From Deltaproteobacteria bacterium (lineage in GTDB: Bacteria > Desulfobacterota > DSM-4660 > Desulfatiglandales > HGW-15), in contig JAFGFM010000042.1 in assembly GCA_016931115.1 (NCBI GenBank), forward strand, positions 1 to 50,044: a stretch of DNA of 50,044 nt. The letters are read 5' to 3'. Positions 8,569-49,054 of the stretch are shown here, in pieces (position 1 is the stretch's first letter; every line of letters starts with the position of its first letter). The notes below the pieces were generated by a model, which worked only from the letters and a program-made list of their open reading frames with translations, did not search any database and was not told the origin of the DNA. The translations under genes were made by a program, and so were the position numbers.

Positions 8569-8580
8569 TATTTTTAAGTA

Positions 8581-8616: not shown

Positions 8617-8658
8617 ATATTCTGGTTCTGAGGTTTTTGCAGGGTCAGGATAAACACC

Positions 8659-9678: not shown

Positions 9679-9801
9679 TAAAACCTCCAGGTAAACTACT
9701 TTTATTTACAACATAATACTATCGAGTATAATTCAATCTCTTGATAACACACCTGTTCACACAAAAAAAGCCAATAATATTCAAATAACACTGCCACTGC
9801 T

Positions 9802-10467
9802 TTACTTTTCAAGATTTGAAATAAAGCTGTTTGATGTCGCTATTGAGTCATTCATCTTTGCAATCAGTTTGTCTATCTCCCCCTTTAATGTCTTGAATTC
9901 AATGCGCAAAGAACCGATTGCCTGAGCATTAAGATTGTGTTTCAGATACAGCACATTGTCGCGGAATGTACGCAGAACCGGGGCCATGCTGGATTCAGCC
10001 TTGATCATGCTTTGAAGCATTTTATTATACTGTTCCTTTGTTTTAAGCAACTGGGTTTTACTGGATTTTTTTAGCTCAACGCTTTTATATAATTCAAGCT
10101 CCTCTTCCCATTCCCTGAAAAGGGCATCAGCAACAGATTTTACCTTGTTTATACGATCAGTAACATTATTTGCTGCTACTTCGCTCTCTTCATACTCCGA
10201 GTTGAGCTTTTCATAGGCTGTTTTCAGGTTTGTGTTATCAATTTGTATTACTGAACTGAATTGTTCAAGTGCTGATTTAAACTGGGTCTGGGCCTCTGCC
10301 TGGGCATCCCTGGCATCCTCAACCCGGTCAATTAGGATATCCCTTTTATGTATGCCCATCTTTTCCATGGCGCCATAGTATGCAGTGGAACAGCCATTTA
10401 AGATGGAAATAAGAAGAATAAAAAATAAAAAATATACTGCCAGTTTTTGGGATTCTATTCTATTCAT
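9802..10467 (-). CDS. DUF2959 family lipoprotein
   Basis: This 221-residue protein has a lipoprotein signal (LLISILNGC, lipobox Cys26). It then follows the recognisable DUF2959 pattern: YYGAMEKMGIHKRDILIDRVEDARDAQ, QFKSALEQFSSV and a long helical, probably coiled-coil body. The predicted place is the periplasmic side of a membrane. The function of the family is not known to me. It reads in the same direction as the UroD-like gene downstream but 123 bp away, so joint transcription is possible. Confidence 0.85.
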   Translation of the reverse strand: MNRIESQKLAVYFLFFILLISILNGCSTAYYGAMEKMGIHKRDILIDRVEDARDAQAEAQTQFKSALEQFSSVIQIDNTNLKTAYEKLNSEYEESEVAANNVTDRINKVKSVADALFREWEEELELYKSVELKKSSKTQLLKTKEQYNKMLQSMIKAESSMAPVLRTFRDNVLYLKHNLNAQAIGSLRIEFKTLKGEIDKLIAKMNDSIATSNSFISNLEK

Positions 10468-10819
10468 AATGTCTCCTTCTTATTGGATGTATGGAATATC
10501 GACTGCATGCAATTTATCTCTTTATTTGAATTGTAAATCAAGGGTCTTCTTTAAAAAGTAACAGGTATGACTGTATCAAAATATTATTAACCTAATACCA
10601 GAAAAACCATCTTGTCTTGATAGAATGAGAGATTGAAGAAATAAATTCATCATTAAATTCAAACAAATATTGACAATAGAAGTGAAAAAGTATAGCTCAA
10701 ATCATAGCTTTTCGATTTACCTTTGGGGCTAACCCATAAAAGTTTTCACATAAATTAACTCAGATATAAATGTTTACATGTATTATGATATATTTAAGCA
10801 TAAAATAGGAGAAATAGGC
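10468..10819. other. 352-bp intergenic region between divergent genes
   Basis: An A+T-rich region separates the DUF2959 gene and the large secreted-protein gene. A TTGACA at 10670-10675 lacks a well-placed -10 box (TATAGC at 15-base spacing). I see no other structure or coding frame. Confidence 0.5.
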
Positions 10820-13800: not shown

Positions 13801-15373
13801 TTATATTAAGGCAATGGACAGCAGTAGTAATTATGCAACTGAATATTATAATGCTGATCCTGATGATCCCAGCAACTGGAATTGTAATGAAGGGGTATTG
13901 GTCACAGTAAATTCTGGAGAGACCAAGAATGCTGTAGATTTTAAACTCGGACCTGGAGCAACTATAACAGGCCGGGTGACTGACTCAGAAACAGGGCTTG
14001 GAGTTGTTGATATGCGTATCTATGCATACAATGAGCAGTGCAATCCTTCTTATTCTTGGTCTGCAGTAACTGACTATAGGGGTAACTATACTTTTACCGG
14101 CCTTCCGGCAGGTGAAGCTGTATACCTGAGATCAATTACTACAATATTCGGGTTTTCCGGCTCAGGGTTTTACTGGCATTTTTTTGATTACATAAGTGTA
14201 TGGCATGATGGAAGTTATGCATATCTATGCAATGGCGTAAACCCTGTTGTTCTGGAAAAAGAAAACATAATTGATTTTGAGCTGGAGGTCGGCAGCACCA
14301 TAGAAGGCAAAGTGACAGACCAGGAAACCGGTCTTGGAATTGCTAATGCATTTGTAATGGTCTATACAGATCAGTGTGATGGGCAGGCTCTTCATTATGG
14401 CATAGCTTCATCAGATGGGGATTATACTATCAAAGGCCTTCCCCCTGGCGAATTATTCTATGTGAAGGTAATACAGGCCAGCAAAGGTGAAATTATTGAT
14501 AACTCTTATGTCACTACCTATTTTGTAAATGAATTTTATGATGATATAAGGATTGATTTATGTGATGGCGCCATACCGGTTAGCGCCCCGTCATCCGGCA
14601 TTGATTTTGAACTTGAGGCCGGTGGATCTATTAAGGGCCGTGTAACCGATTCAGAGACCGGGATGGGAATTTCGAACATATATGTCGAGGTATGGACAGC
14701 TCAGTGCGGTGGAACACAGTTAAATTTTGACATAATAGTTGCTACCAATTTTGAAGGATACTACACATTGCAGGGGCTTCCGACTGGGGAATCATATTAT
14801 ATTAAAACGAAGCAATCCTCTTCTACTTCATCAGATTATATACATGAATGGTACGGAGGGGCAGGAGTGGATACCTGCGATGGAGCTGTGCCTGTTGTTG
14901 TGTCATCAACTAATATTGATTTTGTTCTGCAGCAGGATACTGACGGAGATGGAATATATGACAGTATAGAGAATGCAGGTTGTTTAGATTCTAGTGATGC
15001 AGATACAGACGATGACGGCATACCGGATGGTGTTGAGGATGCCAATAAGAATGGTGTTGTGGATTCAGGCGAAACGGACCCATGTGACTCTGATACAGAT
15101 GGTGATGGCATTCAGGATGGCACAGAAAAGGGGTATACCCTCAGTGACATAGGCCCTGATACAAATACAACCTATTTCAAACCAGACCTTGATCCCTCTA
15201 CTAAAACTAATCCACTGAATACTAACAGTGATGGAGACAGTCTGACAGACGGGGAGGAGGACAAAAACTATAACGGCAGGGTGGATACAGGGGAGACGAA
15301 CCCCAATGATAAAAACAGCCCGGAAGATTTTCCATGGGAGCTCTTCTATCCGGCATTTATGAAAAAACAGTAG
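10820..15373 (+). CDS. Large secreted multidomain protein: IPT/TIG, LVIVD propeller, TSP3 calcium repeats, carboxypeptidase-regulatory-like domains
   Basis: This 1517-residue exported protein probably acts at the cell surface or outside the cell in adhesion or matrix binding (inferred). After a signal peptide ending near ATHA, an IPT/TIG domain covers about residues 30-70. About 13 LVIVD-type propeller repeats (DISNPSDPQITG and variants) run to about residue 700. An Asp-rich thrombospondin type 3-like block (DSDDDGIPDGVED, DTDGDGIQDG) follows at about 755-925. Four carboxypeptidase-regulatory-like domains (GRVTDSETGLGV) lie at about 935-1370, then a second TSP3 block very like the first, and a tail ending WELFYPAFMKKQ. 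The start at 10820 is chosen for AGGAGA seven bases upstream; an in-frame ATG 42 bp earlier lacks one. Confidence 0.85.
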   Translation: MAKLTARVFWVLIFCFLTVFLSTATHADIPSINSINPAQGTVTSSLDVEITGTGFDANTRVSMYMDSGNKRKQVGFLDFLANISITGLAISGNYAYISAQTDDAGALYVVDISNPSDPQITGTEPIPAPAKDISISGNYVYLTADDSDDTNSGLYIVNVSDPSSPEISSYAPISNANKLVVSDNNAYVAVDNAYYTVNVADPLNPVASGPVTIIPPEDYIFSINELSISGGYIYIVGRQRTPDNIFGGTTTLYIINLSDPASQVSLNICDVFFSTYSDIDISGDTAYITSVDYLDSIYNYYAGNIYVVNISDPSNPSVTGNMVIPGAPSDIYVSGSTAYVAEVNGALHAIDIIVPSNLEIIGTFKSDGGVNVSIFGNYAYITGQQALMVFGISNPEEVQVTESIDTPGSAGNTVISGDYAYVADGYSGLQIINISNPLDLQIAGSSLTSDLAYDVSVSGDTAYVFDRNYSKLQMVDISNPTNPQLGESINLSSIAYPASGSNGSITAKNNYLYIGRSNYSPQRGSLNIIDINNPLSPVIVGSLEIDIISYVSKIIISGNYTIISGYKYVDSNYVYTLCVINISNPASPQPIGSIVTPYYMYDITVSGNYIYTVGTGFQTIDISNPSNPIMVGTVPTTLNAKGIVVSGNYAYVSVFGKGLYMIDINDPANPVLIGSVDTPGLANDVFISGGYGFISDGDNGIVRVPLPVEVSPVTVDNANTISATLPGPTVQGYYTLKVFNDEGSDELFGSVRYDYSDQDDDGIPDYIEDSTCTDIIDTDSDDDGIPDGVEDANKNGVVDAGETNPCDSDTDGDGIQDGTELGYTLAQIGPDTATGVFIPDLDPSTTTNPINEDSDGDNLTDGEEDKNHNGRLDSGETNPCDTDTDNDGRSDSTEVNDASYPTDPTDPDSDDDGVNDGLEVNSWTNPLDTGDYPAHGTITGTIHDSTGSLITGTSIEVTAYYSTSSCSTSSIMATAMSDPVTGIFTITGLPANDYYIKAMDSSSNYATEYYNADPDDPSNWNCNEGVLVTVNSGETKNAVDFKLGPGATITGRVTDSETGLGVVDMRIYAYNEQCNPSYSWSAVTDYRGNYTFTGLPAGEAVYLRSITTIFGFSGSGFYWHFFDYISVWHDGSYAYLCNGVNPVVLEKENIIDFELEVGSTIEGKVTDQETGLGIANAFVMVYTDQCDGQALHYGIASSDGDYTIKGLPPGELFYVKVIQASKGEIIDNSYVTTYFVNEFYDDIRIDLCDGAIPVSAPSSGIDFELEAGGSIKGRVTDSETGMGISNIYVEVWTAQCGGTQLNFDIIVATNFEGYYTLQGLPTGESYYIKTKQSSSTSSDYIHEWYGGAGVDTCDGAVPVVVSSTNIDFVLQQDTDGDGIYDSIENAGCLDSSDADTDDDGIPDGVEDANKNGVVDSGETDPCDSDTDGDGIQDGTEKGYTLSDIGPDTNTTYFKPDLDPSTKTNPLNTNSDGDSLTDGEEDKNYNGRVDTGETNPNDKNSPEDFPWELFYPAFMKKQ

Positions 15374-15395
15374 TTTTATTTGGAGGTTATAAGGT

Positions 15396-15424
15396 GTAGA
15401 GACAGGTTTAAAACCTGTCTCTAC
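15396..15424. repeat. 29-bp perfect palindrome after the secreted-protein gene
   Basis: Two 14-base arms, GTAGAGACAGGTTT and its complement, flank a single A. A diverged relative lies at 587-614. It sits 23 bp after a stop codon and could act as a weak terminator, but it looks like a dispersed intergenic element. The rest of 15425-15699 holds no gene I can support. Confidence 0.6.
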
Positions 15425-15699
15425 TATTTATGTTGGTGAAATAGGTGCCATTGCCAATCTGCGGGTGAGGCTAATTTCATTATCAGGCATTGATAAGATA
15501 ATAATCAACCATATCAACCATTGTCACTCCTGTTCATGATTATTTCCGGCTATTTGCCTTGACAGGGTATGGTTATCTTCCTATACTCCGTGGCCAGCAG
15601 GTAGCCGACCCTGTGGTTAGCCTGTTGTCACCTTCTGAATAATTTTCTGATCAATAAAAAGAGGTATTTTTAATTAAATATCATAAAAGGAGATAATTT

Positions 15700-16713
15700 A
15701 TGCTTAAAAAAACTGTTCTGTTGTCATGTTTCTTTTTTATGTTTTCGATCTTTTTGTTCGGAAATGCCAGCGCAAAAGAGTGCGACCGGGCCTGTCTTGA
15801 AAAATATATAGACAGGTATATGGATGCAATGCTTAATAATGATCCGAGTCTTGATCTCTTTGCGCGGGACTGTAAATTCACAGAAAACGGTGTAAGGCTT
15901 CCCCTTGGTAATGAAGGTCTCTGGGTAGGCATGTCAGGGATTGGAACATATAAATTTTATGTGCCTGATATTGAGGCTCAGCAGGTGGCATTTATCGGCA
16001 CTGCCCGTGAAGGTGCAGCCGGTAAAGACGGGCAGAGTCCCCTTGTTGCGGTAGCCATACGTCTTAAGATTGTTAATGATAAAATTACAGAGGCAGAGCA
16101 GCTTGTTATACGCCCTGAGACTAACTCTATGGGCGGAGGGCAGGGTGGCATGTCATTTCCTCCGACAGGGGAGAGCGTGGAGAAGCTCGGAAAGCCTCAT
16201 GAGGTATATTTCCAGGTAATACCGGAAGATAAACGCCCTTCTCGTGAAGAGATGATCATAACCGCAAATTATTATTTTTCAGGGATGCAGAAGAATGATG
16301 GCAAGGGCTATTATCCCTTTAGTGATGACTGTCACAGGCTTGAAAACGGGATGCCCAGCACGAATGTGCCTGTGCTGGCAGGGCAGGAGCGCCCTGACCC
16401 CAAGACATCAAAGATGTATTCTGCATCATGGGGATGCAAGGAGCAGTTTGAGTCCGGTCTTCTCAATTTTGTTACCCGTATCAGGGACCGCAGGTTTGTT
16501 GCTGTGGACCGTGAGCGCGGGATTGTCTTTGCATTCGGCTTTTTTGATCACCAGGATATAAACTGGACATGGCAGCTTGCAGAGCTCTTCAAGGTAGAAA
16601 ACGGCATGATCCGCAGGATAGAGGCTGTATTTCACCGAAGCGCCTATGGTATGAATTCCGGCTGGAGCACCTATGAGCAGGGCATTTCAGACCAGATGCA
16701 GATAGTGAGGTAG
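15700..16713 (+). CDS. Secreted protein, DUF8021-like (NTF2/SnoaL-type fold likely)
   Basis: This 337-residue protein has a signal peptide ending near residue 25 (GNASA). The mature part begins CDRACLEKYIDRYMDAM, then KFTENGVRLPLGNEGLW and a second half with TWQLAELFKVENGMIRRIEAVFH. The combination FTENG, LG-x-x-GLW and RIEAVFHRS resembles proteins I know as DUF8021, which have an alpha+beta cone typical of NTF2-like folds. The two halves may be repeated domains. The enzymatic role is unknown. The ribosome binding site AAAGGAG is seven bases before the ATG. It lies 385 bp before the AOR operon with a promoter between, so it is a separate unit. Confidence 0.65.
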   Translation: MLKKTVLLSCFFFMFSIFLFGNASAKECDRACLEKYIDRYMDAMLNNDPSLDLFARDCKFTENGVRLPLGNEGLWVGMSGIGTYKFYVPDIEAQQVAFIGTAREGAAGKDGQSPLVAVAIRLKIVNDKITEAEQLVIRPETNSMGGGQGGMSFPPTGESVEKLGKPHEVYFQVIPEDKRPSREEMIITANYYFSGMQKNDGKGYYPFSDDCHRLENGMPSTNVPVLAGQERPDPKTSKMYSASWGCKEQFESGLLNFVTRIRDRRFVAVDRERGIVFAFGFFDHQDINWTWQLAELFKVENGMIRRIEAVFHRSAYGMNSGWSTYEQGISDQMQIVR

Positions 16714-35795: not shown

Positions 35796-38009
35796 ATGGA
35801 ATTTTATGCTGATGGAAATAAGAGGCAGAAGCTTATTACACATATTGTCGGCGTGAGGAATAATGCAGCTTTATTCACCAAAGATATTTGTTGTGAATCT
35901 TGGGGCGCATTATTAGGTGACTGGCATGATTTGGGAAAATTTATGGAAGCTTTTCAGAAGTATATGCTTGAAGATGAAGCGCGTATTGAACATGCTATCG
36001 TGGGAGGTAGATATGCAACAGATCAATTTAATGATCCTCTTCGTAAACTGGCCTTGCAGTTTACTATTTCTTGTCACCATACCGGACTGCAAAATAGTGA
36101 AACTCTCAGAAAACGATTAGTCAACGCGGCACAATTGGTATGCGATGCTATCAAAAATGTACCGGATGATTTGTTGGATAGAAAGCTTCCTGAGTGGCCA
36201 GCTTGGTTGATCCCTCCATCTACAACTGCTGAAGAAAAGGAAATAGATGTCTGGAAGAGGTGCTTGGAATTTTGGATACGAATGCTTCATTCCTGTCTGG
36301 TTGATGCTGATTGGCTTGATGCTGAGAAACGAGATCCCGATGCACCGAAAAGACCTGAGTTCCTTTCAATTGAAAAACTTAGAGATAAACTGGATGGATA
36401 TATTGATGCAAAAGTTTCAGATGCCACAAAGCACAATTGGACACCAGTAAATGCTCAAAGAAAAAATGTACTCGATGCTTGCAGGGAGTCTGCAAAAACT
36501 AAAACAGGATATTTTTCATTAACAGTTCCTACAGGAGGTGGGAAAACACTTTCAGGAATGTCCTTTGCTCTAAATCATGCAGTAGAAAATAAAATGAAAC
36601 GTGTGATTGTTGTCATCCCATATACAAGCATTATCGAACAAAATGCATCTGTTTATGCAGAGGTTCTTGGTCAAGAAAACATAATTGAGCATCACTCAAA
36701 TATTGATCCTGAAAAAGATACAGTAAGAAATCACCTAGCAGCAGAGAATTGGGATGCGCCTATCATTGTCACAACGAATGTTCAATTTTTTGAATCATTG
36801 TATGCAAACAAAAACTCCAGACTTCGGAAACTTCATAACATTTCCAGAAGCGTCATATTTTTAGACGAAGTACAATCACTACCTCCGGTGTTGTTGTATC
36901 CGATATTGGATGCAATACGGGAATTACGTGATCATTATGGTTGCTCTATCGTCCTTTCGACGGCAACTCAACCAGCCTTGAAAAAACGCAAATCATTTGA
37001 TTGCGGGTTTGATGCAGTGAAAGAAATCATCCCGGATGCAATGAAGCTGTCGAAAGATTTGGCTCGTGTGAATATTGAATGGGAAACGATGAATGCGATA
37101 GAATATCGAGATATTTCAGAACGTATCCTAAAAGAAAATATACAAAGAGTTTTAGTAGTTACATATAAACGTAAAGATGCCCGAGCGCTTGCGGGGTTAC
37201 TACCCGATGATACTTATCATCTTTCGGCATCAATGTGTCCGTCGCACCGGAAAGATACTCTTAATAAAGTAAAAGAAGAGTTGATGAAAAATAAATCCTC
37301 GACAGTTCGGTTAGTGAGTACTCAATTAATAGAAGCGGGTGTAGATATTGATTTCCCTGTCGTTTTTAGAGCGTTAGCAGGGCTGGACAGTATTTCGCAG
37401 ACAGCAGGGCGGTGTAACCGTGAAGGTAAAAATGTTAATGGAGGTCGCCTAATTGTGTTTCGCGCACCAACAGAACCTCCTGTGGGAGTTTTACGTTTGG
37501 GAAAGGCTATTACTGAAAGTATACTTAATTCCAGTGCGAGTGAATTTGACGGCGTTTTACGGGACAAAGATGGTTTTTTGGATTTAACGTCCCCCGCAAT
37601 TTATGATACATACTTTCGCTTGCTTTATTCTGGCGTTCAACTAGATGGGGCAGGGGTTCAAAATGCCCGCACTAACTTCGATTTTCCAGAAGTTGCTAAG
37701 CGTTTCTGTATGATCGATAGCGCTACATATCCCGTAGTTGTTCCTTACAAAAATGGGTATGACATACTGGATGGTGTCCACGTTAAATTCAAACCATCGC
37801 GGGATGATTTCAGATCACTCCAGCCATTTATTGTCCAGATATACTTCCATGAACTTGAGGTACTGAATAATATAGGCGCACTTGGGTCCATACATGAGAA
37901 ATCATTCTATTATTTAACAACGCCATATGAACGACTTTATGATGATCGTTTTGGTTTAGTGATATCGGAAGAGAATCTTTTCCCTGATTATTCAAAGCTT
38001 AATGTATGA
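35796..38009 (+). CDS. cas3: Cas3 helicase-nuclease, type I-C
   Basis: This 737-residue effector unwinds and degrades DNA marked by Cascade. The N-terminal HD nuclease domain has His16, WHDLGK (His44-Asp45), His66 and the pair His94-His95. The SF2 helicase has Walker A PTGGGKT (245-251), DEVQ (357-360, in place of DEVH), STATQPAL, then STQLIEAGVDI and the arginine motif QTAGRCNREG. HD-then-helicase order and length fit type I-C. AAAAGGTG precedes the ATG. It overlaps the cas5c region by ATGA. Local G+C looks lower than in cas1 and cas2. Confidence 0.95.
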   Translation: MEFYADGNKRQKLITHIVGVRNNAALFTKDICCESWGALLGDWHDLGKFMEAFQKYMLEDEARIEHAIVGGRYATDQFNDPLRKLALQFTISCHHTGLQNSETLRKRLVNAAQLVCDAIKNVPDDLLDRKLPEWPAWLIPPSTTAEEKEIDVWKRCLEFWIRMLHSCLVDADWLDAEKRDPDAPKRPEFLSIEKLRDKLDGYIDAKVSDATKHNWTPVNAQRKNVLDACRESAKTKTGYFSLTVPTGGGKTLSGMSFALNHAVENKMKRVIVVIPYTSIIEQNASVYAEVLGQENIIEHHSNIDPEKDTVRNHLAAENWDAPIIVTTNVQFFESLYANKNSRLRKLHNISRSVIFLDEVQSLPPVLLYPILDAIRELRDHYGCSIVLSTATQPALKKRKSFDCGFDAVKEIIPDAMKLSKDLARVNIEWETMNAIEYRDISERILKENIQRVLVVTYKRKDARALAGLLPDDTYHLSASMCPSHRKDTLNKVKEELMKNKSSTVRLVSTQLIEAGVDIDFPVVFRALAGLDSISQTAGRCNREGKNVNGGRLIVFRAPTEPPVGVLRLGKAITESILNSSASEFDGVLRDKDGFLDLTSPAIYDTYFRLLYSGVQLDGAGVQNARTNFDFPEVAKRFCMIDSATYPVVVPYKNGYDILDGVHVKFKPSRDDFRSLQPFIVQIYFHELEVLNNIGALGSIHEKSFYYLTTPYERLYDDRFGLVISEENLFPDYSKLNV

Positions 38010-38026
38010 GTTTGAAAGGAGGAACT

Positions 38027-38752
38027 ATGAACAAAAGGAGAGGCCCGACATTGAGTCTTCGGGCAAAAGGCCCGCTTGCTATGTTTACACGGCCTGAACT
38101 TAAAACAGAACGGGTGAGTTATGAGGTTCCAACTCCTTCTTCTGTACGTGGAATATTTGAAGCCATTTGCTGGAAGCCCGCTATTCAATGGCATGTGGAG
38201 CGTATTTATGTATTTAATGCAATATCCTTTACCGCGATAAAACGGAATGAACTGAATGGCAAAGCCATACCGCCTTCAAAGCAGATGATGGATCGCGGTG
38301 TGAGAGAATTTACGTATGGGATATATGGCATAAATATAGAAGATGAACAGACGCGAGCACAGCGGAACACATTGGCCTTACGAAATGTGGACTATCAGTT
38401 CGAGGCATTTTTTACGCTTACTGACAAAGCTGGGCCAGATGATAATATCTACAAATTTATCGATATGTTCACCCGTCGGGTGGATAATGGACAGCATTTT
38501 TACCAGCCCTATTTCGGTTGTCGGGAGTGTATTGCTCAAGTTCTATCCCCCATAGAATCACCTGAAGCGCACGCGATCTCCATATCCAAAGAACTTGGAA
38601 TTATGCTTTGGGATGTTGAATTTGGAGGAGACGAGACAAAGAAGAACACGCCTCTTTTTTTCAACGCAAAAATCGAAAATGGAAAAATTGATATCCCATT
38701 GTATCCAATCGGTCGAGAGGAGGTGTCGTATGATATTGAAAGCGCTTTTTGA
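38027..38752 (+). CDS. cas5c: Cas5c, crRNA-processing endoribonuclease/Cascade subunit
   Basis: This 241-residue RAMP protein in type I-C replaces Cas6: it cuts the repeat and then stays bound at the crRNA 5' handle. The early AMFTRPELKTERVSYEVPTPSSVRG is the typical Cas5 N-terminal ferredoxin-like motif with basic and Tyr/Lys residues of the active region. The start at 38027 is chosen for AAAGGAGG at 38015-38022; an ATG at 38006 overlaps the cas3 stop and would add seven residues. Its end overlaps the cas8c start by 23 bp. Confidence 0.92.
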   Translation: MNKRRGPTLSLRAKGPLAMFTRPELKTERVSYEVPTPSSVRGIFEAICWKPAIQWHVERIYVFNAISFTAIKRNELNGKAIPPSKQMMDRGVREFTYGIYGINIEDEQTRAQRNTLALRNVDYQFEAFFTLTDKAGPDDNIYKFIDMFTRRVDNGQHFYQPYFGCRECIAQVLSPIESPEAHAISISKELGIMLWDVEFGGDETKKNTPLFFNAKIENGKIDIPLYPIGREEVSYDIESAF

Positions 38753-40721
38753 TTTGGCACAAAGAGAAGACCTTTTACCAGATCCTGATTTTGAAATTAA
38801 ACCTATCTCTTGGGTTATTCGAGTGGGTGACAACGCACGCTTTCTAAGTATTGAACCGCTGAAACAGACAGAAAAGCTCACTGTGGGCTCAAAGAAAAAG
38901 CCGAAAATGTTTGGCACGCCAAAAACAGTTCCTAAGCAACAACCAAGTCGTTCCGGGAAAGACCCTGAGCCTGAATTTCTAGTCGATAATCCATTGTATG
39001 CTTTGGGTAAATCAATACCTTCAAATAAATATAACATTTCTGTGTGCAAAAAGCGTTTGCGTATGTTTGCAGCAAAAATAATCTTGTGCGGACATAAGAC
39101 AAAAGATGTTGGTGCGGTGAGTGTTGGCCGCTTTCTGAGAGATGTAAATAGAGGCAGCCTTCAGATTGAAACACCTCAAGAGATGAAGGGGAATGATTTA
39201 ATTGCGTTCTCTTATCAGATGGAAGAAACATTTGTACATGAGAGACCGGGTATTGTTGAATATTGGAGAAAGCTCAAGGCAGATAACCAAAAATCGAAAG
39301 ACGATATCATATGCCTAATTACTGGTGATTTCTGCACACCTGCCAAAAAGCATAAGAAACTAAAAAACGTTCCTCAAAAGAAAATTGGCGACATAGCATT
39401 GGCACCCTGTAACCAACCTGCTTTTGAAAGTTATGGATGGGAAAAAGGTGAGAATGCTGTAATAGGAGAGAAATCTTCCGATTTCGCAATGACTGCATTA
39501 AATCGCCTTTTGCATCCCAACTACCCTGATCCGCAAGATCCGAATCTTACCTTATCAAAGCAAAATGTACATTTAAGCTCAGATACAGTGGTTTGTTATT
39601 GGACACGGAATAAAAGTATATTATCTGATTCTTTTGGTCTAGCCATTGAGGTTGATGAAGAAAAGATCGAAACAAAGCCAGCACAGGTTGCGGAAATGTA
39701 TAAAAGCCTTTGGAAAGGCATCCCCTATAAATTAGACAAGCCCGACCAGTTCTATTCATTGGTTCTTTCTGGTGGACAAGGGCGGGCAACAATACGGGAT
39801 TGGATAGAGTCGAACACCCAGCATGTCGTGGATAGTCTGGCGCAATATTTTGCAGACTTGAGAATTGAGCGCTGCTGTCCTCCCCCCAAAAAAGGTAAAC
39901 ATCCCGAAAGCTTTTCGCTGCCTTTATTACTTGAATCGTTAGCTGACCCAAAAGACCGCAGGAAAGAAGGCATTCCTTCTGCCATCAGTGCACAGTTCTA
40001 CCGTGCATCAATTGACAATAGATTATTATTCCCACAGCCAGCATTTAGCCGGGCAATTTATCGTTATAGAGCTGAACTGGGTAAGGAAAGCGATGAAAAA
40101 AATGGATGGGTGCACAAGAATTGGAATGATGCCCGATCAGCAATCATTAAAGCGTATTTAAATCGAAAATATCGAAAAGAATTTAAAAAAAAGGAGGTGT
40201 TAGAAAAAATGAATCCAAATTGTGAGGATAAAGGGTATTTGCTTGGACAACTTATGTCCGTACTTGAAAAATTGCAAACAGAGGCTTTAGGGAGTGTTAA
40301 TGCGAGTATTATTGATCGCTATTTTCCAGGAGCATCTGCCGCTCCGAAGAGCGTTTTTGGCTTTTTACTTAGAAACGCACGGCACCATGCACGCAAAGCT
40401 AAAGATGAGTCAAAAAACAAAGGGCAAATATTTAATCTGGAAAGATTAATTGATCAAATTTGTAGCCAATTTGATGTTTCCCTGAATAAAACAGAAGATC
40501 CCAAAACTGTTTATACGAATGGATTCCCTTCATATCTTTCTCAAGAGCAACAGGGAATGTTTGTTTTAGGATACCATCAAATGCGCAAATGGCTATGGAT
40601 GACTAGCGATGAGAGGGTTATCTGGAATAAAGCGCATTCTGATGCCGCTCGTGCTTATTTGTGGAGCAAGAAGGAAAATGATTTAGGAAATTCAACTGTA
40701 GAAAAAGGAGAAAACCAATGA
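38730..40721 (+). CDS. cas8c: Cas8c (Csd1), large Cascade subunit
   Basis: This 663-residue large subunit recognises the PAM in type I-C Cascade. It begins MILKALFDLAQREDLLPDPD, typical of Csd1, and its last third (VFGFLLRNARHHARK ... SYLSQEQQGMFVLGYHQMR) is the Csd1 C-terminus. The start at 38730 follows GAGAGGAGG; a longer frame would lie wholly within cas5c. It contains an internal start for Cas11c at 40209. It overlaps cas7c by ATGA. Confidence 0.93.
   Translation: MILKALFDLAQREDLLPDPDFEIKPISWVIRVGDNARFLSIEPLKQTEKLTVGSKKKPKMFGTPKTVPKQQPSRSGKDPEPEFLVDNPLYALGKSIPSNKYNISVCKKRLRMFAAKIILCGHKTKDVGAVSVGRFLRDVNRGSLQIETPQEMKGNDLIAFSYQMEETFVHERPGIVEYWRKLKADNQKSKDDIICLITGDFCTPAKKHKKLKNVPQKKIGDIALAPCNQPAFESYGWEKGENAVIGEKSSDFAMTALNRLLHPNYPDPQDPNLTLSKQNVHLSSDTVVCYWTRNKSILSDSFGLAIEVDEEKIETKPAQVAEMYKSLWKGIPYKLDKPDQFYSLVLSGGQGRATIRDWIESNTQHVVDSLAQYFADLRIERCCPPPKKGKHPESFSLPLLLESLADPKDRRKEGIPSAISAQFYRASIDNRLLFPQPAFSRAIYRYRAELGKESDEKNGWVHKNWNDARSAIIKAYLNRKYRKEFKKKEVLEKMNPNCEDKGYLLGQLMSVLEKLQTEALGSVNASIIDRYFPGASAAPKSVFGFLLRNARHHARKAKDESKNKGQIFNLERLIDQICSQFDVSLNKTEDPKTVYTNGFPSYLSQEQQGMFVLGYHQMRKWLWMTSDERVIWNKAHSDAARAYLWSKKENDLGNSTVEKGENQ
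40209..40721 (+). CDS. cas11c: Cas11c small subunit from an internal start in cas8c
   Basis: Type I-C systems are known to translate a Cas11 small subunit from inside cas8c. Here AAGGAGGTG (40191-40199) is followed by an in-frame ATG at 40209, Met494 of Cas8c, giving a 170-residue product MNPNCEDKGYLLGQLMSVLE and onward, mostly helical. The ribosome binding site is among the strongest in the locus, has no other use in mid-gene and sits where the internal start is expected. Cas11c would form part of the belly of Cascade. Confidence 0.8.
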   Translation: MNPNCEDKGYLLGQLMSVLEKLQTEALGSVNASIIDRYFPGASAAPKSVFGFLLRNARHHARKAKDESKNKGQIFNLERLIDQICSQFDVSLNKTEDPKTVYTNGFPSYLSQEQQGMFVLGYHQMRKWLWMTSDERVIWNKAHSDAARAYLWSKKENDLGNSTVEKGENQ

Positions 40722-41848
40722 GTGGAGCTATTAAAAATCGTTATGAGTTTATTTTTCTGTTTGATGTAAAAAATGGAAATCCCAATGGAGACCCTGATGC
40801 AGGGAATGCGCCTCGTCAGGACTACGAAACAGGGAAAGGGTTAGTTACTGATGTTTGTCTTAAGCGGAAAATTAGAAACTATGTTGATATTACGAAAAAT
40901 AACCAGGCTCCTTACGAAATTCATGTGAGAGAAGGAGCTTTTCTTTCCGAACATCATAAACGTGCTCATCTGGCAATTGAAAATGAAACTATACAGTTGG
41001 CAGTTCCTATGGATTTGGTAGATGAATTCAAAGCATATGAATCATATCCAGATGGAATTACTTTCTCAGATCAAAATGCGCGACCATGCTTGATCTTGTC
41101 TTTAGCTGGATTGGAAGAAACTGAGAAACAGGTGAAAGATCTAAAGGAGAAAAAGAAAAAAGAAGATACTGAAAACAAGAAGCTGATATCGCCTGCTGCA
41201 AAAGCAAAACTTCGTGAACTGTTTATTGACTCAAAGGAAAAAAAAGCGGCTCAGTGGATGTGTAAAAATTTTTTTGATGTTCGCACGTTTGGAGCAGTTA
41301 TGTCCACTGGAGATATGCGTTGCGGACAGATTAGAGGGCCTGTTCAATTTGGATTTGCGGAAAGCGTTGATTCAATTATTGGGAAAGAAATACCAATGTC
41401 ACGGACGGCCGCTGTAAGCGTCGATGACCCTGATCAAAAAGGTTTAGGTGCTCGAAAGTCAATTGTCCCTTATGGGTTGTATCGGGTTCATGGATATATT
41501 TCTGCACATTTAGCAAGTCAAACGAACTTTACAGAGGATGATTTGGCAATGCTGTGGTCTGCCCTGTTGAATATGTTTGATCAAGATCCCGCTGCTGCTC
41601 GAACTGGGATGCATGCACAGAAGTTGATCGTTTTTAAACATATCGGGCTTGAAATAGAAGAAAAGCAAAAAGAAAACCAAGCAAAATTAGGATGCGCACC
41701 AGCTCAAAAATTATTTGAAATGGTAAATGTTGAATTAATAAATAAAGATAAGCCCCCACGTTCTTTTGATGATTATAAAATGAACGACTTTTCGGATATA
41801 AAATCTAAGGCACTTGCTTTGGGCGTTGAAGCAATTGAAATGCTGTAG
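40718..41848 (+). CDS. cas7c: Cas7c (Csd2), Cascade backbone, with inserted charged segment
   Basis: This 376-residue RAMP protein coats the crRNA. Conserved features are FLFDVKNGNPNGDPDAGNAPR near the N-terminus, GLVTDVCLKRKIRNY, and NFFDVRTFGAVMSTG (185-198) followed by GQIRGPVQ. The family is normally about 290 residues; the extra length lies mostly at about residues 80-175, including a Lys/Glu-rich helix at 132-156. The C-terminus (PRSFDDYKMNDFSD) differs from the usual family end. ATGA overlap with cas8c and AAAAGGAG upstream show coupling. Confidence 0.93.
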   Translation: MSGAIKNRYEFIFLFDVKNGNPNGDPDAGNAPRQDYETGKGLVTDVCLKRKIRNYVDITKNNQAPYEIHVREGAFLSEHHKRAHLAIENETIQLAVPMDLVDEFKAYESYPDGITFSDQNARPCLILSLAGLEETEKQVKDLKEKKKKEDTENKKLISPAAKAKLRELFIDSKEKKAAQWMCKNFFDVRTFGAVMSTGDMRCGQIRGPVQFGFAESVDSIIGKEIPMSRTAAVSVDDPDQKGLGARKSIVPYGLYRVHGYISAHLASQTNFTEDDLAMLWSALLNMFDQDPAAARTGMHAQKLIVFKHIGLEIEEKQKENQAKLGCAPAQKLFEMVNVELINKDKPPRSFDDYKMNDFSDIKSKALALGVEAIEML

Positions 41849-41897
41849 TTATGAAAGAAGCCGGTGTGTCGGAATAGGATATGGTCAAATAGTATAG

Positions 41898-42053
41898 GTA
41901 AAAAGAAAAACCGGTCCTGAAAAATCAGCAAGAGAATTCGCTGATTATGAGGTTCTGATTGACAGGAATAATCTTCCTTCAGGAGTTACTATTGAAGAGA
42001 AAGTTTAGCAATATCGGTAAAAATGCCAGCGCTGGCTTTTTTACCGGAATAGC
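41898..42053 (+). pseudogene. Fossil 3' end of an earlier cas7c gene
   Basis: Starting just after an in-frame TAG at 41895, the frame reads VKRKTGPEKSAREFADYEVL then IDRNNLPSGVTIEEK. This matches, from memory of the family, the usual Cas7c C-terminus (V-x-RK-x-G ... F-x-DYEV-x-x-D-x-x-x-LP-x-GVT). It has no start codon or ribosome binding site. A run of four A after GTTATT-type codons carries the frame past the expected end to a stop at 42051; removing one A would give EEKV and a stop at once, like the family end. It is clearly not part of the intact cas7c, which stops at 41848. Confidence 0.7.
42016..42047. terminator. 32-bp near-perfect palindrome after cas7c
   Basis: CGGTAAAAATGCCAGC is followed directly by GCTGGCTTTTTTACCG; 15 of 16 pairs match. 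The T run in the right arm and the place downstream of the effector genes suggest a terminator or a processing hairpin separating the effector and adaptation halves. Confidence 0.65.
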
Positions 42054-42146
42054 GATGAGGGAGCTTGTAACATTATGAAATAATAGGGAATAGCTGAAAA
42101 TTAGCTTTTCCTGAATAGCATGTTTTTAGATGGAAACGAGGTAACC

Positions 42147-42731
42147 ATGCACGATCAAAAAGACAATGATTCATTAAAGCTTATCCCGGCACACGGCGGA
42201 TACCGTGAACTCAAGTCTTACCAGATGTCCGAAATTGTTTATGATGCCACTGTGGCCTTTTGTGACAGGTTTATCTCAAAGTTTTCACGCACCCATGACC
42301 AGATGGTGCAGGCAGCTCGCAGCGGTAAGCAGAATATTGCTGAGGGATGCATGGCCTCAGGCACATCAAAAAAGACAGAACTTAAACTCGTGAATGTTGC
42401 GCGAGCAAGCCTTGAGGAATTGCTTCTGGATTATGAAGACTTTCTCAGGCAAAAGGAGTTGCCGCTCTGGGCTAAAGAAAACCCTGTGGCAAAAAAGGTT
42501 AGGGGGCTTTGCTACCAGGAGAATAGGTCTTATAAGACCTATAGGATTTATATTGAAGTTGATTCTGAAGAGGTTGCGGCCAACACCATTGTCTGTGTTA
42601 TCCACCAGACCAACTACCTGCTTGACCAGCAGTTACGAACCCTTGAGAAGGATTTTGTTAATGAGGGCGGTTTTACAGAGCGGCTATACCGTGTAAGGAC
42701 AGAGGCACGTAAATGGAACAAGACCAAATAA
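42147..42731 (+). CDS. Four-helix-bundle protein (S23/bAvd-like, with suffix domain) inside the cas operon
   Basis: This 194-residue helical protein of the 23S rRNA-intervening-sequence/bAvd four-helix group carries the typical KSYQMSEIVYDATVAFCDRFISKF start, then QMVQAARSGKQNIAEGCMAS and LVNVARASLEELLLDYEDFL. A C-terminal extension (TIVCVIHQTNYLLDQQLRTLEKDF) resembles the four-helix-bundle suffix domain. The start at 42147 is preferred for GAGG just upstream. It overlaps the cas4 start by 19 bp, so the two are translationally coupled. It is not a standard type I-C component; a basic pentamer-type bundle could bind nucleic acid or proteins (inference). Confidence 0.8.
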   Translation: MHDQKDNDSLKLIPAHGGYRELKSYQMSEIVYDATVAFCDRFISKFSRTHDQMVQAARSGKQNIAEGCMASGTSKKTELKLVNVARASLEELLLDYEDFLRQKELPLWAKENPVAKKVRGLCYQENRSYKTYRIYIEVDSEEVAANTIVCVIHQTNYLLDQQLRTLEKDFVNEGGFTERLYRVRTEARKWNKTK

Positions 42732-43381
42732 TTTACTCCGAGGATGATCTTTTGCCCCTTTCAGGATTGCAGCATATTATCTTCTGCAAGCGGCAGGCGG
42801 CCCTTATCCACATTGAGCAGGCATGGGCAGAAAACATGCTTGCTGCCGAAGGCAGGGTCATGCATGACAAGGTGCATGAAGGCGGAAGCGAATCAAGGGG
42901 AGATGTCCGGGTTGAATATGCCATGCCTTTACGTTCTTTAAGGTTGGGGTTAATAGCCAAGGCTGATGTTGTTGAATTTCACAGGGTAAATAATCAGGGA
43001 GAAAGTCAGGTGTTAAAATGGCAGCCCTTTCCTGTGGAGTATAAGCATGGTAAGCCTAAAAAAGATAATTCTGATAAGGTGCAGTTATGCGGCCAAGCCA
43101 TATGCCTTGAAGAGATGCTTAATGTCAGGATAGTGCAGGGTGCCCTGTTTTATGGGGCCATCAGGCGGAGAGAGGATGTTATTTTTGATGATGAACTAAG
43201 GCAATTCACCCAGGGTGTGGCAAGGGAGTTCCATGAGCTTATTGCCGGTGGCATTACACCAAAGGCGGTGTATTCAAAAAGATGTGATAACTGCTCCATG
43301 TATGAATTATGCCTGCCAAAGACAGTTGGTAAAAGCCGAAAGATAACAAACTATTTAAAGGACATGGTGATTGAGAAATGA
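42713..43381 (+). CDS. cas4: Cas4 exonuclease
   Basis: This 222-residue RecB-family nuclease with a [4Fe-4S] cluster trims prespacers and checks the PAM in adaptation. Cluster cysteines are Cys25 and the C-terminal Cys191, Cys194 and Cys200 (CDNCSMYELC). Nuclease motifs are His51, Asp84 and PVEYKHGK with Glu109 and Lys111. It overlaps the four-helix gene upstream and cas1 downstream. Confidence 0.93.
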   Translation: MEQDQIIYSEDDLLPLSGLQHIIFCKRQAALIHIEQAWAENMLAAEGRVMHDKVHEGGSESRGDVRVEYAMPLRSLRLGLIAKADVVEFHRVNNQGESQVLKWQPFPVEYKHGKPKKDNSDKVQLCGQAICLEEMLNVRIVQGALFYGAIRRREDVIFDDELRQFTQGVAREFHELIAGGITPKAVYSKRCDNCSMYELCLPKTVGKSRKITNYLKDMVIEK

Positions 43382-44409
43382 AAAAGCATTTGAACACCCT
43401 GTTTGTAACAACCCAGGGGGCTTACCTCAACAAAGAGGGTGAGACAGTGGTTGTGAATGTGGAGAAGGAGGTAAAGCTCAGGCTCCCCATACACACCATT
43501 GGTGGAATCATCTGTTTTGGCAATGTGATGTGCAGCCCTTACCTGCTGGGCTTTTGCGCTGAAAAGGATGTTGCTGTCAGCTTCCTCACTGAAAATGGCA
43601 GGTTCCTTGCCAGGGTTCAGGGGCCTGTATCAGGGAATGTACTCTTGAGAAGAGAACAATACCGAAGGGCGGATAATCCGGAGGCAACAGCTCATATAGT
43701 GAAATCCATATTAACCGGAAAGCTTGCCAACTGCCGGACAGTGCTCAAAAGGGCATTAAGGGATCACCCTGATAAAATTGATGTAGAGGCAGTAAAAGAA
43801 GTTGCAGACAAATTAGGATACTCTCTTGATCGTTTGCAGGAAGATCTCCACCTTGATGTGTTAAGGGGTATTGAAGGCGAGGCTGCAAAGGCATACTTTA
43901 GAGTGTTTGATCATCTGATAATTGCTCAAAAACAGGATTTTTATTTCAGGGAGCGCAACAGGAGGCCGCCTCTTGACCGTGTCAACTGCCTGCTTTCATT
44001 TATCTACACAATAGTGATGCATGATGTGAGGTCTGCCCTTGAGACAACCGGGCTTGACCCGGCAGTAGGTTTTTTGCACAGGGACAGGCCAGGAAGGCCA
44101 GGTCTGGCGCTTGATATGATGGAAGAATTCAGACCATTCTTGGCAGACCGAATGGCTCTATCGCTGATTAATCTCAACCAACTAAGGCCGGAAGGTTTTA
44201 CCACAGTAGAGTCAGGCGCGGTAATCATGGATGATGAAACCAGAAAGACACTGCTTACCACTTATCAGAAGAGAAAACAGGATACCATTGACCACCCCTT
44301 TTTAAATGAAAAGGTGAGTATCGGCATTTTGTTTTATACTCAGGCCCTGCTTATGGCGAGATTCTTACGCGGTGATATAGACGGGTATCCGCCATTTATA
44401 TGGAGGTGA
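43378..44409 (+). CDS. cas1: Cas1 integrase, type I-C
   Basis: This 343-residue integrase inserts new spacers with Cas2. The metal ligands fit Glu166 (GIEGEAAKAYF), His234 (VGFLHRDRPGR) and Asp246 (LALDMMEEFRP). The beta-strand N-terminal domain and helical C-terminal domain have the usual length. It overlaps cas4 by ATGA and is followed at 4 bp by cas2. Confidence 0.96.
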   Translation: MKKHLNTLFVTTQGAYLNKEGETVVVNVEKEVKLRLPIHTIGGIICFGNVMCSPYLLGFCAEKDVAVSFLTENGRFLARVQGPVSGNVLLRREQYRRADNPEATAHIVKSILTGKLANCRTVLKRALRDHPDKIDVEAVKEVADKLGYSLDRLQEDLHLDVLRGIEGEAAKAYFRVFDHLIIAQKQDFYFRERNRRPPLDRVNCLLSFIYTIVMHDVRSALETTGLDPAVGFLHRDRPGRPGLALDMMEEFRPFLADRMALSLINLNQLRPEGFTTVESGAVIMDDETRKTLLTTYQKRKQDTIDHPFLNEKVSIGILFYTQALLMARFLRGDIDGYPPFIWR

Positions 44410-44413
44410 AAGT

Positions 44414-44704
44414 ATGCTTGTGGTGGTTTGTTATGATGTGGATACAACCGACCCTGAAGGGCCTCGCCGGTTAAGGCGTGTCGCAAAGACGTGCAAGGAT
44501 TATGGGCAGAGAGTACAGTTTTCTGTTTTTGAATGCCAGGTCGACCCGGCACAGTGGACAGCGCTTAAACAGAAGCTGATAGATAAAATAGATGAGAATA
44601 CAGACAGCTTGCGGTTTTATTTTTTGGGAGCAAACTGGCGAAACAGGGTGGAGCAGGTGGGGTTGAAAAAATCCTATGACCCTGATGAACCGATGATTGT
44701 TTAA
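44414..44704 (+). CDS. cas2: Cas2, adaptation protein
   Basis: This 96-residue partner of Cas1 has a ferredoxin-like fold. It starts MLVVVCYDVDTTDPEGPRRL with the conserved Asp8, and RVQFSVFEC marks the third strand. GGAGGTG precedes the ATG. The array leader follows. Confidence 0.95.
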   Translation: MLVVVCYDVDTTDPEGPRRLRRVAKTCKDYGQRVQFSVFECQVDPAQWTALKQKLIDKIDENTDSLRFYFLGANWRNRVEQVGLKKSYDPDEPMIV

Positions 44705-44931
44705 TGGCTTTGCGAACCTGTAGCTCAAAAAAAGGGATAATGATGAAAACCCTTGAGGAGCAAGGATCTGAACGGTTTTTATAAGAGAGTGTTTCGCAAG
44801 GGAAAATAGGCTGTAATATTAACTGGTTATTGGTAAGCTCTTTGAAAACTGAATATTTTTTTGCCATTATTTAAAGGGTTCGCAAAATATGGTTGTATAT
44901 TAATGAAATATCAGTAGTTTATAGTTGTACA
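44705..44931 (+). promoter_or_regulatory. CRISPR leader
   Basis: The 227-bp A+T-rich region between cas2 and the first repeat has no gene. Near its end it carries TTTAAAGGGTTCGCAAAATA, similar to the region before the first repeat in other type I-C leaders (from memory). It should hold the array promoter and integration signals. Confidence 0.7.
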
Positions 44932-46534
44932 GTCGCTCCCCCTGCGGGAGCGTGGATTGAAACAGCTTGCCCCTTGTAGCCGCGTTAACGATATAAGCGT
45001 CGCTCCCCCTGCGGGAGCGTGGATTGAAACAAGTGAAACGCCTTGCGATAGGTGGTTTGGTCAGGGTCGCTCCCCCTGCGGGAGCGTGGATTGAAACATT
45101 AATAAAACGGTTGCCCCCTGATATGAGGGCACGTCGCTCCCCCTGCGGGAGCGTGGATTGAAACTCATTATTAGCCCCTGCTAACTGCCTGATTTTGTCG
45201 CTCCCCCTGCGGGAGCGTGGATTGAAACAGAGTTCACTGTTGAGCGTAAAGAAATTATTAAGTCGCTCCCCCTGCGGGAGCGTGGATTGAAACTCACCAT
45301 AGTATGCGCTGTCGCTTGCAAGCTGCAGTCGCTCCCCCTGCGGGAGCGTGGATTGAAACACGTGTTTATGGCTCCCGTGCATGGCCTGTGAAGGTCGCTC
45401 CCCCTGCGGGAGCGTGGATTGAAACTTGCGCTGATTGGCGAGTCAGGGGATACTTTGGCAGTCGCTCCCCCTGCGGGAGCGTGGATTGAAACATTTTCCA
45501 GCATGTGCATGATGTCCCTTAACCGCTGGTCGCTCCCCCTGCGGGAGCGTGGATTGAAACAGATTTCTATATTATAACCGTTAGCACATTCAGGTCGCTC
45601 CCCCTGCGGGAGCGTGGATTGAAACTGGGTCTCCGCCCTCTCCCTGATCCAGCCGAATGGTCGCTCCCCCTGCGGGAGCGTGGATTGAAACTTTTAACCG
45701 CTCCATACAGTTGCGGAATCATCTGTCGCTCCCCCTGCGGGAGCGTGGATTGAAACTTGTCGATATCATTGAAAAGCATGAAGGCTTTAGTCGCTCCCCC
45801 TGCGGGAGCGTGGATTGAAACACCTGATCCGATATGAACTTAATGACCACCTCCGTCGCTCCCCCTGCGGGAGCGTGGATTGAAACATTAAACTGAACGC
45901 CTACTCTGCTTAATGCGCCTAGTCGCTCCCCCTGCGGGAGCGTGGATTGAAACCGGCCATTGCTGCCTTAACACCGCCCAGGGCGCCGGTCGCTCCCCCT
46001 GCGGGAGCGTGGATTGAAACATTAACCTGTCAATACAATTGCCCTTGCCATGATGGTCGCTCCCCCTGCGGGAGCGTGGATTGAAACAATAAACGGTTTG
46101 ATAAGAGCTTGTTTGCCATGTGTCGCTCCCCCTGCGGGAGCGTGGATTGAAACTGATAATATCGCACCTGTAAACCACAAAGGGCGGTCGCTCCCCCTGC
46201 GGGAGCGTGGATTGAAACGCTCCTTAAAGGGCACATATGAGGCCCAAATATTGTCGCTCCCCCTGCGGGAGCGTGGATTGAAACTGGTAATCTGAATCTT
46301 AGCCCAGCCGGTGACATTGGTCGCTCCCCCTGCGGGAGCGTGGATTGAAACCATGATATCCATCCCATATCTTTAGAAATCTGTTGTCGCTCCCCCTGCG
46401 GGAGCGTGGATTGAAACGGACGCTCAAGGTCAAGAGCTATAACTCCAGACGCGTCGCTCCCCCTGCGGGAGCGTGGATTGAAACCCCTTCAGGTTTCAGG
46501 TCTCCACCCTCAGCCTTCGGTCGCTCCCCCTGCG
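44932..46534 (+). CRISPR. Type I-C CRISPR array, 24 full repeats and one truncated
   Basis: The 32-bp repeat begins GTCGCTCCCCCTGCGGGAGC and ends GTGGATTGAAAC; GCTCCC and GGGAGC form the hairpin stem and ATTGAAAC gives the crRNA handle. I counted 24 intact copies starting at 44932, 44999, 45066, 45133 and so on to 46453, and a 25th copy at 46520 cut after 15 bases. The 24 spacers are 32-36 bp, mostly 33-35. All full repeats read identical by eye. The leader is on the cas2 side and the damaged repeat at the far end, as expected for the oldest end. Confidence 0.98.
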
Positions 46535-47400: not shown

Positions 47401-48018
47401 ATGACAAAACACGCTCAAAGCATTGATAATAAAGTAATAAGCCGTATTTTTGGACACGGCAGGGGTTGGGTCTTTACCCCTGTCCATTTTTCAGACCTTG
47501 GGAGCCGTGACGCCGTTGCTTCTGCCTTAAGGCGTGCCAGGCAATCAGGTATAATCCGCCAGCTTGCAAGGGGGCTTTATGATTATCCCCGCAATGATAA
47601 GGAGTTTGGAATACTCTCTCCATCGACTGAATCAGTAGCACGTGCCCTGGCAGGCAGGGATGCGGTTCGTTTACAGCCATCCGGTGCCTATGCTGCCAAC
47701 CTGCTTGGTATTTCAACTCAGGTCCCAATGAAGATTTTATACCTGACTGATGGCAGCTCAAGAAAGGTAAAGATCGGTAAAAAAGAGATAACCCTTAAAA
47801 AGACCACACCATTGAACATGGCAACAGCAGGCAGAAAAAGCGGGCTTGTTATCCAGGCCCTGCGGCATATGGGCCAGAAACATGTTGATGAGGATGTTAT
47901 TGTTAAAATCGATAGCCAGCTTGACGCTAATTCTAGGAAGCAGATGTTGAAGGATGTACGTTTTGCTCCTGCATGGATCGCCGATATAATGCGACGGCTT
48001 TCAAAAAACGAGGAATGA
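47401..48018 (+). CDS. abiEi: AbiEi-type antitoxin (DUF6088 family)
   Basis: This 205-residue protein has an N-terminal winged-helix region (GHGRGWVFTPVHFSDLGSRDAVASALRRARQSGIIRQLARGLYDYP), the standard AbiEi start, and a C-terminal antitoxin/repressor domain. It would neutralise the toxin encoded 7 bp downstream and probably represses the operon. The family acts in phage abortive infection. The ribosome binding site is weak. It is placed between array remnants and the toxin gene in a defence neighbourhood. Confidence 0.88.
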   Translation: MTKHAQSIDNKVISRIFGHGRGWVFTPVHFSDLGSRDAVASALRRARQSGIIRQLARGLYDYPRNDKEFGILSPSTESVARALAGRDAVRLQPSGAYAANLLGISTQVPMKILYLTDGSSRKVKIGKKEITLKKTTPLNMATAGRKSGLVIQALRHMGQKHVDEDVIVKIDSQLDANSRKQMLKDVRFAPAWIADIMRRLSKNEE

Positions 48019-48025
48019 AACTGGT

Positions 48026-49054
48026 ATGAATACCTTCCTGTCCATGTCTGATGAAAGAAGGAGACTTATCTGCGAACAGGCACAGGATAAACTTGGCCTG
48101 CCACCAGCAACAATTGAGAAGGATTTCTGGGTTTGCTGGATTTTGAAAAATTTATTCGAATTGCCCCTCTGGGGAGATAAGCTGGTATTTAAAGGCGGGA
48201 CTGCGCTTTCAAAGGGCTGGGCTCTTATAGAAAGATTTTCAGAGGATATTGATATTGTTATTAATCGTGATGCACTTGGCTTTGGCAATGATAATGCGCC
48301 TCACCGCGCTACCAGCAGGAAACAAGCACGAAAACGTCTGGATGCCCTTAAAGAGGCAAGTCAAGGATGTATAAACAAGATCATGCTTCCATTGCTCAAG
48401 GAGTCGATATCGTATAAATTACCAGTAGATTTATCATGGAAGCTTACTTCTGATACTTTTGATCCTGATGGACAAACACTTGTTTTTTCATACCCGACAA
48501 CCTTTAATGTTCAGATCGCCTACCTCAGACAGGAGGTAAGGATTGAAATGGGTGCACGCTCTGATACAGAGCCGACACAGGAGATAGAGATCAAACCTTA
48601 TCTCGCAGACGCTTTTCCTGATCTTTTTCAGCAAACCCGCTTTTCGGTCAGAGCAGTCTCCCCAGAACGTACCTTTTGGGAAAAGGCCATGCTATTACAT
48701 GAAGAAACCTTCAGGCCACCTGATAAAAAACGTAAAGCAAGAATGGCAAGACATTATTATGACCTGTTCTGTTTAATAAAAGCTGGTATTGGAGATAGAG
48801 CATCCATGAATCAAGACCTGTTTATTCGTATCGCCGCACACCGACGAGTCTATTTCCATTATTCCTGGGTCGATTATGACACATTACGCCAGGGGAACCT
48901 GAGACTGATTCCACAGGGAGAGCAACTTGAAGACTGGAGAAGGGATTATGTAGCCATGAAGGACGAGATGTTCTTTGGCGATCCTCCTGCGTTTGATGAT
49001 ATTATTGAAACTGTCCGGGAGTTTCAGGATATGTTCAACAAGAAAACACGATGA
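48026..49054 (+). CDS. abiEii: AbiEii/AbiGii-type nucleotidyltransferase toxin
   Basis: This 342-residue toxin of the AbiE type IV toxin-antitoxin family has the nucleotidyltransferase motifs EKDFW (31-35), VFKGGTALSK (54-63) and FSEDIDIVI, giving the Asp74-x-Asp76 metal pair. Later regions include RTFWEKAMLLHEE and KKRKARMARHYYDLFCL, typical of the family. AbiEii members modify nucleic acid ends or tRNA when the antitoxin fails. It is full length and seems intact. Confidence 0.93.
   Translation: MNTFLSMSDERRRLICEQAQDKLGLPPATIEKDFWVCWILKNLFELPLWGDKLVFKGGTALSKGWALIERFSEDIDIVINRDALGFGNDNAPHRATSRKQARKRLDALKEASQGCINKIMLPLLKESISYKLPVDLSWKLTSDTFDPDGQTLVFSYPTTFNVQIAYLRQEVRIEMGARSDTEPTQEIEIKPYLADAFPDLFQQTRFSVRAVSPERTFWEKAMLLHEETFRPPDKKRKARMARHYYDLFCLIKAGIGDRASMNQDLFIRIAAHRRVYFHYSWVDYDTLRQGNLRLIPQGEQLEDWRRDYVAMKDEMFFGDPPAFDDIIETVREFQDMFNKKTR

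Follow-up and report, generated by a model that had tools for sequence, protein, structure and literature searches.

A four-helix-bundle gene with a suffix domain accompanies the adaptation genes of type I-C, I-E and I-G CRISPR loci

To our knowledge, few accessory factors of spacer acquisition are known apart from Cas4 and a handful of host proteins. A standard type I-C locus comprises the interference genes cas3-cas5c-cas8c-cas7c and the adaptation genes cas4-cas1-cas2 with a repeat array. The locus described here likewise has all of these intact, and differs in an additional gene, coupled to cas4 and lying between the interference and adaptation modules, that encodes a four-helix-bundle protein (hereafter the bundle gene and bundle protein). 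The protein shares its four-helix-bundle core with the S23, or 23S rRNA intervening-sequence, proteins (2gsc, 2rld), from which it differs in carrying an additional helical suffix (about residues 141-193) and in being encoded outside any rRNA gene. It is a clear member of the TIGR04258 (four helix bundle suffix domain) proteins, most copies of which sit elsewhere in a genome, unlike the CRISPR-associated clade described below; in that clade the linker has a near-constant length of 43-48 residues, as against 12-83 in other TIGR04258 proteins. Avd and S23 proteins belong to one four-helix-bundle superfamily, and the bAvd proteins of diversity-generating retroelements have both the bundle and a basic charge in common with the protein studied here, which differs from them in having neither a reverse transcriptase (RT) partner nor an Avd family match. 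An association of this general kind has been noted before: the legend to Fig. 6B of Altae-Tran et al. 2023 (PMC10910872) places "23S rRNA IVP" among adaptation-module associations and gives no function for it. Going by the legend, this is a candidate match to the bundle gene; the text of that legend names no subtype, suffix subfamily or clade structure, and no restriction-operon link or evidence of module swaps. Our literature search found no paper that deals with the suffix clade or with what it does.

A type I-C locus with an additional gene between its modules

The window (the whole 50,044-nucleotide stretch of DNA analysed, from a Deltaproteobacteria bacterium) contains a complete type I-C locus at 35796-46484 (Table 1). 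All four interference genes are full-length open reading frames (ORFs), with model matches that cover almost their entire length. An earlier note on this DNA had spoken of effector fossils at this place, which does not fit the intact cas3, cas5c, cas8c and cas7c; what it had in mind was probably the relic Cas7 tail that lies beyond cas7c. The hairpin that follows the relic is strong and occurs once in the genome, and may be a terminator between the modules; Rfam returned no match at the bundle locus. Shortly past the CRISPR array, at 47401-49054, the window also carries an AbiE-type toxin-antitoxin pair (DUF6088/AbiEi-like and AbiEii).

Table 1 Features of the type I-C locus in the window.
Feature	Position	Strand	Evidence
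cas3	35796..38009	+	intact HD and helicase; Cas3c model E=6e-196
cas5c	38006..38752	+	intact
cas8c	38730..40721	+	intact; TIGR01863 1-585 of 588
cas7c	40718..41848	+	intact; end of swapped-in interference block
Cas7 relic, C-terminal part of an earlier copy (VKRKTGPEKSAREFADYEVLIDRNNLPSGVTIEEKV, then stop)	41898..42008	+	best tblastn match to L132 Cas7 tail, E=1e-8
palindromic hairpin with T-run, between Cas7 relic and bundle gene	42008..42053	.	-20.3 kcal/mol, z -3.9
ribosome binding site region of bundle gene, GGAAACGAGGTAACC	42131..42146	+	common to window and G001; homology to G001 begins here
four-helix-bundle and 4helix_suffix gene	42147..42731	+	TIGR04258/TIGR02436; AF2 pLDDT 90; start and ribosome binding site conserved in G001
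cas4 (Cas4c)	42713..43381	+	begins within bundle gene; PADLOC Cas4c E=5e-84
cas1 (Cas1c)	43378..44409	+	TIGR03640 523 bits
cas2	44414..44704	+	profile matches
CRISPR array, 24 copies of the 32-nt repeat GTCGCTCCCCCTGCGGGAGCGTGGATTGAAAC, then a decayed terminal copy	44932..46484	+	

The bundle ORF extends over 42120-42731 and can open at 42120; we place the start at 42147 because the ribosome binding site ACGAGGTAACCATG and the start codon are both conserved in the sister genome G001, which gives a protein of 194 aa (MHDQKDND...). The 3' end of the gene overlaps cas4 by 19 bp (42713-42731), and the overlap is likewise 19 bp in G001 and in locus L037. The earlier note's description of an intact gene with a good ribosome binding site, coupled to cas4 inside the CRISPR operon, is therefore borne out. 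Across most loci measured, the distance from the stop codon of the bundle gene to the start codon of the next adaptation gene lies between -25 and +21 nt, and the dN/dS of the bundle gene is 0.087 for the window against G001 and 0.06-0.28 in six other pairs. By these measures the gene is under purifying selection and translationally coupled.

Among NCBIfam models, the protein matches TIGR04258 (4helix_suffix) with E=7.7e-23 and 80.2 bits (cut-off 40) over model positions 2-49 of 49, and TIGR02436 (four helix bundle) with E=1.4e-7 and 31.7 bits (cut-off 24). Its match to Pfam PF05635 (23S_rRNA_IVP; E=1.4e-6, 28.9 bits) lies below the gathering score of 33.8, and marks it as a divergent relative of that family; no PADLOC model matches it. 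Structure prediction of the protein alone, proposed in the earlier note, gave an all-helical AF2 monomer model with a pLDDT of 90 from a 70-sequence alignment, to which the closest solved structures in a fold search were, with weak E-values, the S23-family proteins 2gsc (TM 0.80 by target) and 2rld. The protein is thus an S23-type four-helix bundle (TIGR02436) with a 4helix_suffix C-terminus, and of the label "S23/bAvd-like" given to it earlier only the S23 half holds, bAvd being related at the level of the superfamily and no Avd match having been obtained. The calculated pI is 8.6, the median for cas-linked bundles being 9.4.

Distribution of the bundle gene and its relatives

We searched 84,980 species genomes with six cas-linked bundles as queries and obtained 80 loci, picked on sequence similarity irrespective of context. 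Trees built from 109 and then from 76 sequences placed 46 in one clade (SH-aLRT 96, then UFBoot 100 and SH-aLRT 98), which bears the signature L(Q/K)SYQM and spans at least four phyla: Thermodesulfobacteriota, Nitrospirota, Planctomycetota (Brocadia, Scalindua) and Acidobacteriota. All but two of the 46 lie beside the first adaptation genes of a CRISPR locus. Specifically, 40 adjoin cas4 or cas1 in type I-C loci, three belong to type I-E loci, where they precede cas1e (L066, L077 and L038, the last with a cas4 remnant), and one, L055, precedes a Cas4-Cas1 fusion of type I-G. The two members without an adjacent cas gene in the available sequence are L072, which adjoins an argininosuccinate-synthase-like gene, and L151, which is near a contig end. 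The association reaches well beyond the genome of the window, with the coupling kept, and the clade, far from being equally present at random places, is dedicated to the position before cas4 or cas1; both ways of refuting the link that the earlier note had named thus turn out in favour of it. Several further TIGR04258 copies occur in the genome of the window, some of them fragmentary or cut by a contig end, and none lies beside cas genes within the available sequence.

Bundles from outside the clade also occur at CRISPR loci. In L061 a non-clade bundle precedes cas4 while the clade bundle lies between cas4 and cas1, in G025 (L032) a distant bundle precedes cas5, and in L112 a bundle lies beside I-E repeats; all three are independent arrivals. 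We note that the L032 locus (6202-15949) is I-C-like with the order cas5-cas8-cas7-cas3, and that the bundles preceding its cas5 and its cas4 are distantly related to each other. In L105, a Desantisbacteria I-C locus, a second, suffix-less S23-like four-helix-bundle gene (8318-8695) lies between cas4 and cas1.

An even sampling of the phylum (247 genomes) served to estimate frequency; it held 51 suffix copies in 32 genomes and 49 genomes with Cas1c over the cut-off. Ten of the 51 copies lie just upstream of cas4-cas1c on the same strand, about 0.65-1.3 kb 5' of cas1c, and all ten fall among the 30 best Cas1c loci. Under random placement (~3,000 genes per genome) about 0.003 would be expected on a rough estimate, and we therefore reject chance adjacency. 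In the sampled phylum the bundle is present in about 10 of 49 I-C loci (about 20%), about four fifths being without it, and on a Cas1 tree of 39 loci with and 20 without the gene, a set enriched for bundle loci, its presence changes 13 times. Adaptation accordingly does not require the bundle.

Elsewhere in the family, bundle genes are found repeatedly in type I restriction-modification (RM) operons, usually before hsdR and often with an ATGA overlap. Of 26 suffix loci listed from the phylum sample, eight are in type I RM operons and six in I-C loci. The gene immediately 3' of the bundle is hsdR in seven loci (L016, L149, L160, L161, L162, L166 and L067), hsdM in L152 and L168, and hsdS in L159; in L076, hsdR is by sequence the next detected gene. 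Further arrangements are ERCC4 nuclease - bundle - RecQ-like in L099 and L101 and bundle - AddA-like in L114 (RecQ and AddA named by eye). The RM-linked bundles are scattered on the tree and do not form a clade. Five non-CRISPR bundle-suffix proteins (L017, L018, L019, L025 and L034) carry, by eye, an additional C-terminal topoisomerase-like zinc ribbon (CPxCGKxMxxR...GCSDYPxCxG). Type I-E is a subtype without a cas4 of its own, and the presence of the bundle before cas1e in I-E loci, together with that of the family in RM operons, makes it unlikely that its activity is peculiar to Cas4.

The boundary between interference and adaptation modules

Comparison of the window with G001, from the same genus, shows that the two share the ribosome binding site, bundle gene, cas4, cas1, cas2 and array, from 42131 onward, at 82% nucleotide identity, with Cas1 proteins 98% identical, whereas the interference proteins of G001 are only about 25-58% identical to those of the window. 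The cas3-cas7 block of the window is instead 83% identical in nucleotides to L062, which belongs to a different lineage, and the breakpoint lies between cas7 and the bundle gene. This split in identity, with the Cas7 relic in between, indicates a replacement of the interference genes in which the bundle remained with the adaptation genes; the relic is the scar of that swap. In L126 and L127, from another genus, homology too starts at the start codon of the bundle. When these two loci are compared with the bundle-less L125 (genus g78), homology resumes only inside cas4, so this genus offers no clean excision boundary.

Several I-C loci carry partial duplications at this position. A 5' fragment of cas4 precedes the bundle in L041, L047 and L053, and a 5' fragment of the bundle precedes a YoeB/YefM pair or a Bro-N gene in L031, L051, L063 and L068. 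Identity between fragment and intact downstream copy is 73-90%, and where checked the shared stretch begins at the gene start, on which grounds we reject a simple transposon of the kind that makes target-site duplications. The fragments look instead like what one-sided homologous recombination with donor DNA would produce. Interference and adaptation modules meet at an active exchange point. Opposite-strand YoeB/YefM pairs interrupt the I-C operons of L051, L063, L068 and L075, separating the bundle either from a bundle fragment or from cas1. A Bro-N (DinD-like) gene is found in L031, L033, L044 and L105, placed either 5' of the bundle or within the set of adaptation genes of the I-C locus.

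Mantel tests (n 23-36 loci) related the divergence of the bundle to that of Cas proteins. Bundle distances correlate with those of Cas1 (r 0.38-0.48, p 0.001-0.004) and Cas4 (r 0.26-0.47), and are uncorrelated with those of Cas7 (r 0.03-0.05) or Cas3 (-0.14); Cas4 and Cas1 diverge together far more closely (0.8) than bundle and Cas1 do. At the level of sequence comparison, the bundle is tied to the adaptation module by clade, position, coupling, purifying selection, co-divergence and co-movement.

Possible roles of the bundle protein

The linkage of the bundle to CRISPR is real and evolutionarily meaningful; its mechanism we infer as follows. A lineage of S23/4helix_suffix proteins would have taken up its place directly 5' of the first adaptation gene, apparently in a single event, and would since have moved with cas4-cas1-cas2 (in the window also with the array) among I-C, I-E and I-G loci, interference genes being exchanged around the bundle and adaptation genes during such moves. 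The basic, probably oligomeric bundle may bind nucleic acid or adaptation proteins and tune spacer acquisition, either assisting substrate handling by (Cas4-)Cas1-Cas2 or restraining acquisition, with stoichiometry in the case of restraint kept through coupled translation. Such a property would also explain the relatives directly 5' of hsdR, which encodes the DNA-cleaving subunit of type I restriction. That the bundle gene serves the adaptation module as an optional accessory we consider about as likely as not, and a part at the adaptation stage is its most likely role, at that same evenly balanced confidence. This reading is weakened by the optional nature of the bundle and by sister lineages that work outside CRISPR, in type I RM and ERCC4/RecQ neighbourhoods.

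These relatives could mean that the bundle is a general cofactor or guard of defence operons, repeatedly recruited beside dangerous DNA-processing subunits (HsdR, Cas4/Cas1, ERCC4/RecQ, AddA-like) whose synthesis or activity it controls, for example through RNA-binding autoregulation of the coupled downstream cistron. The frequency of RM operons among the suffix loci, the seven cases of hsdR directly downstream and the position before cas4 or cas1 in all three CRISPR subtypes are consistent with such a role, whereas some copies precede hsdM, hsdS or housekeeping genes and the RM-linked copies are no clade; we regard it as possible, if on the unlikely side. A further proposal, somewhat unlikely in our view, is that one protein family provides a cofactor common to CRISPR spacer acquisition and type I restriction that would license or restrain the enzyme translated next (Cas4/Cas1 or HsdR), one lineage having become specialised for CRISPR adaptation across three subtypes. 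The bundle might also be a passenger or selfish gene that recombines into gaps before the start codons of mobile operons and hitch-hikes on transferred adaptation modules, as the several copies per genome, the varied contexts, the duplicated 5' fragments beside inserts, the YoeB/YefM and Bro-N cargo found at this position and the two different bundles in the L061 operon might suggest. This we consider unlikely: one clade keeps one position across at least four phyla and three subtypes under strong purifying selection, one-sided recombination of donor DNA would also leave partial duplications, and no transposase or terminal repeats were found. The family was absent from 50,697 phage records, gave no confirmed hit in viral contigs and occurred once among 72,556 plasmids, from which we also reject a phage- or plasmid-borne gene or anti-CRISPR. 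Finally, the PF05635 match and the superfamily shared by Avd and S23 might suggest that the bundle acts like bAvd, as the partner of an RT, an analogy drawn in the earlier note. It proved weak: no RT was noted in the ORF lists of the window or the listed neighbours, and the best 50 fold matches listed returned S23 proteins and no Avd. We reject this partnership as very improbable.

On the preferred reading of an adaptation-stage accessory, a widely conserved, subtype-crossing bundle gene at the boundary of interference and adaptation is a concrete candidate for an accessory factor of acquisition. The gene marks the site of CRISPR module swaps, and if its relatives in restriction operons act alike, one small protein would link the control of innate and adaptive prokaryotic defence.
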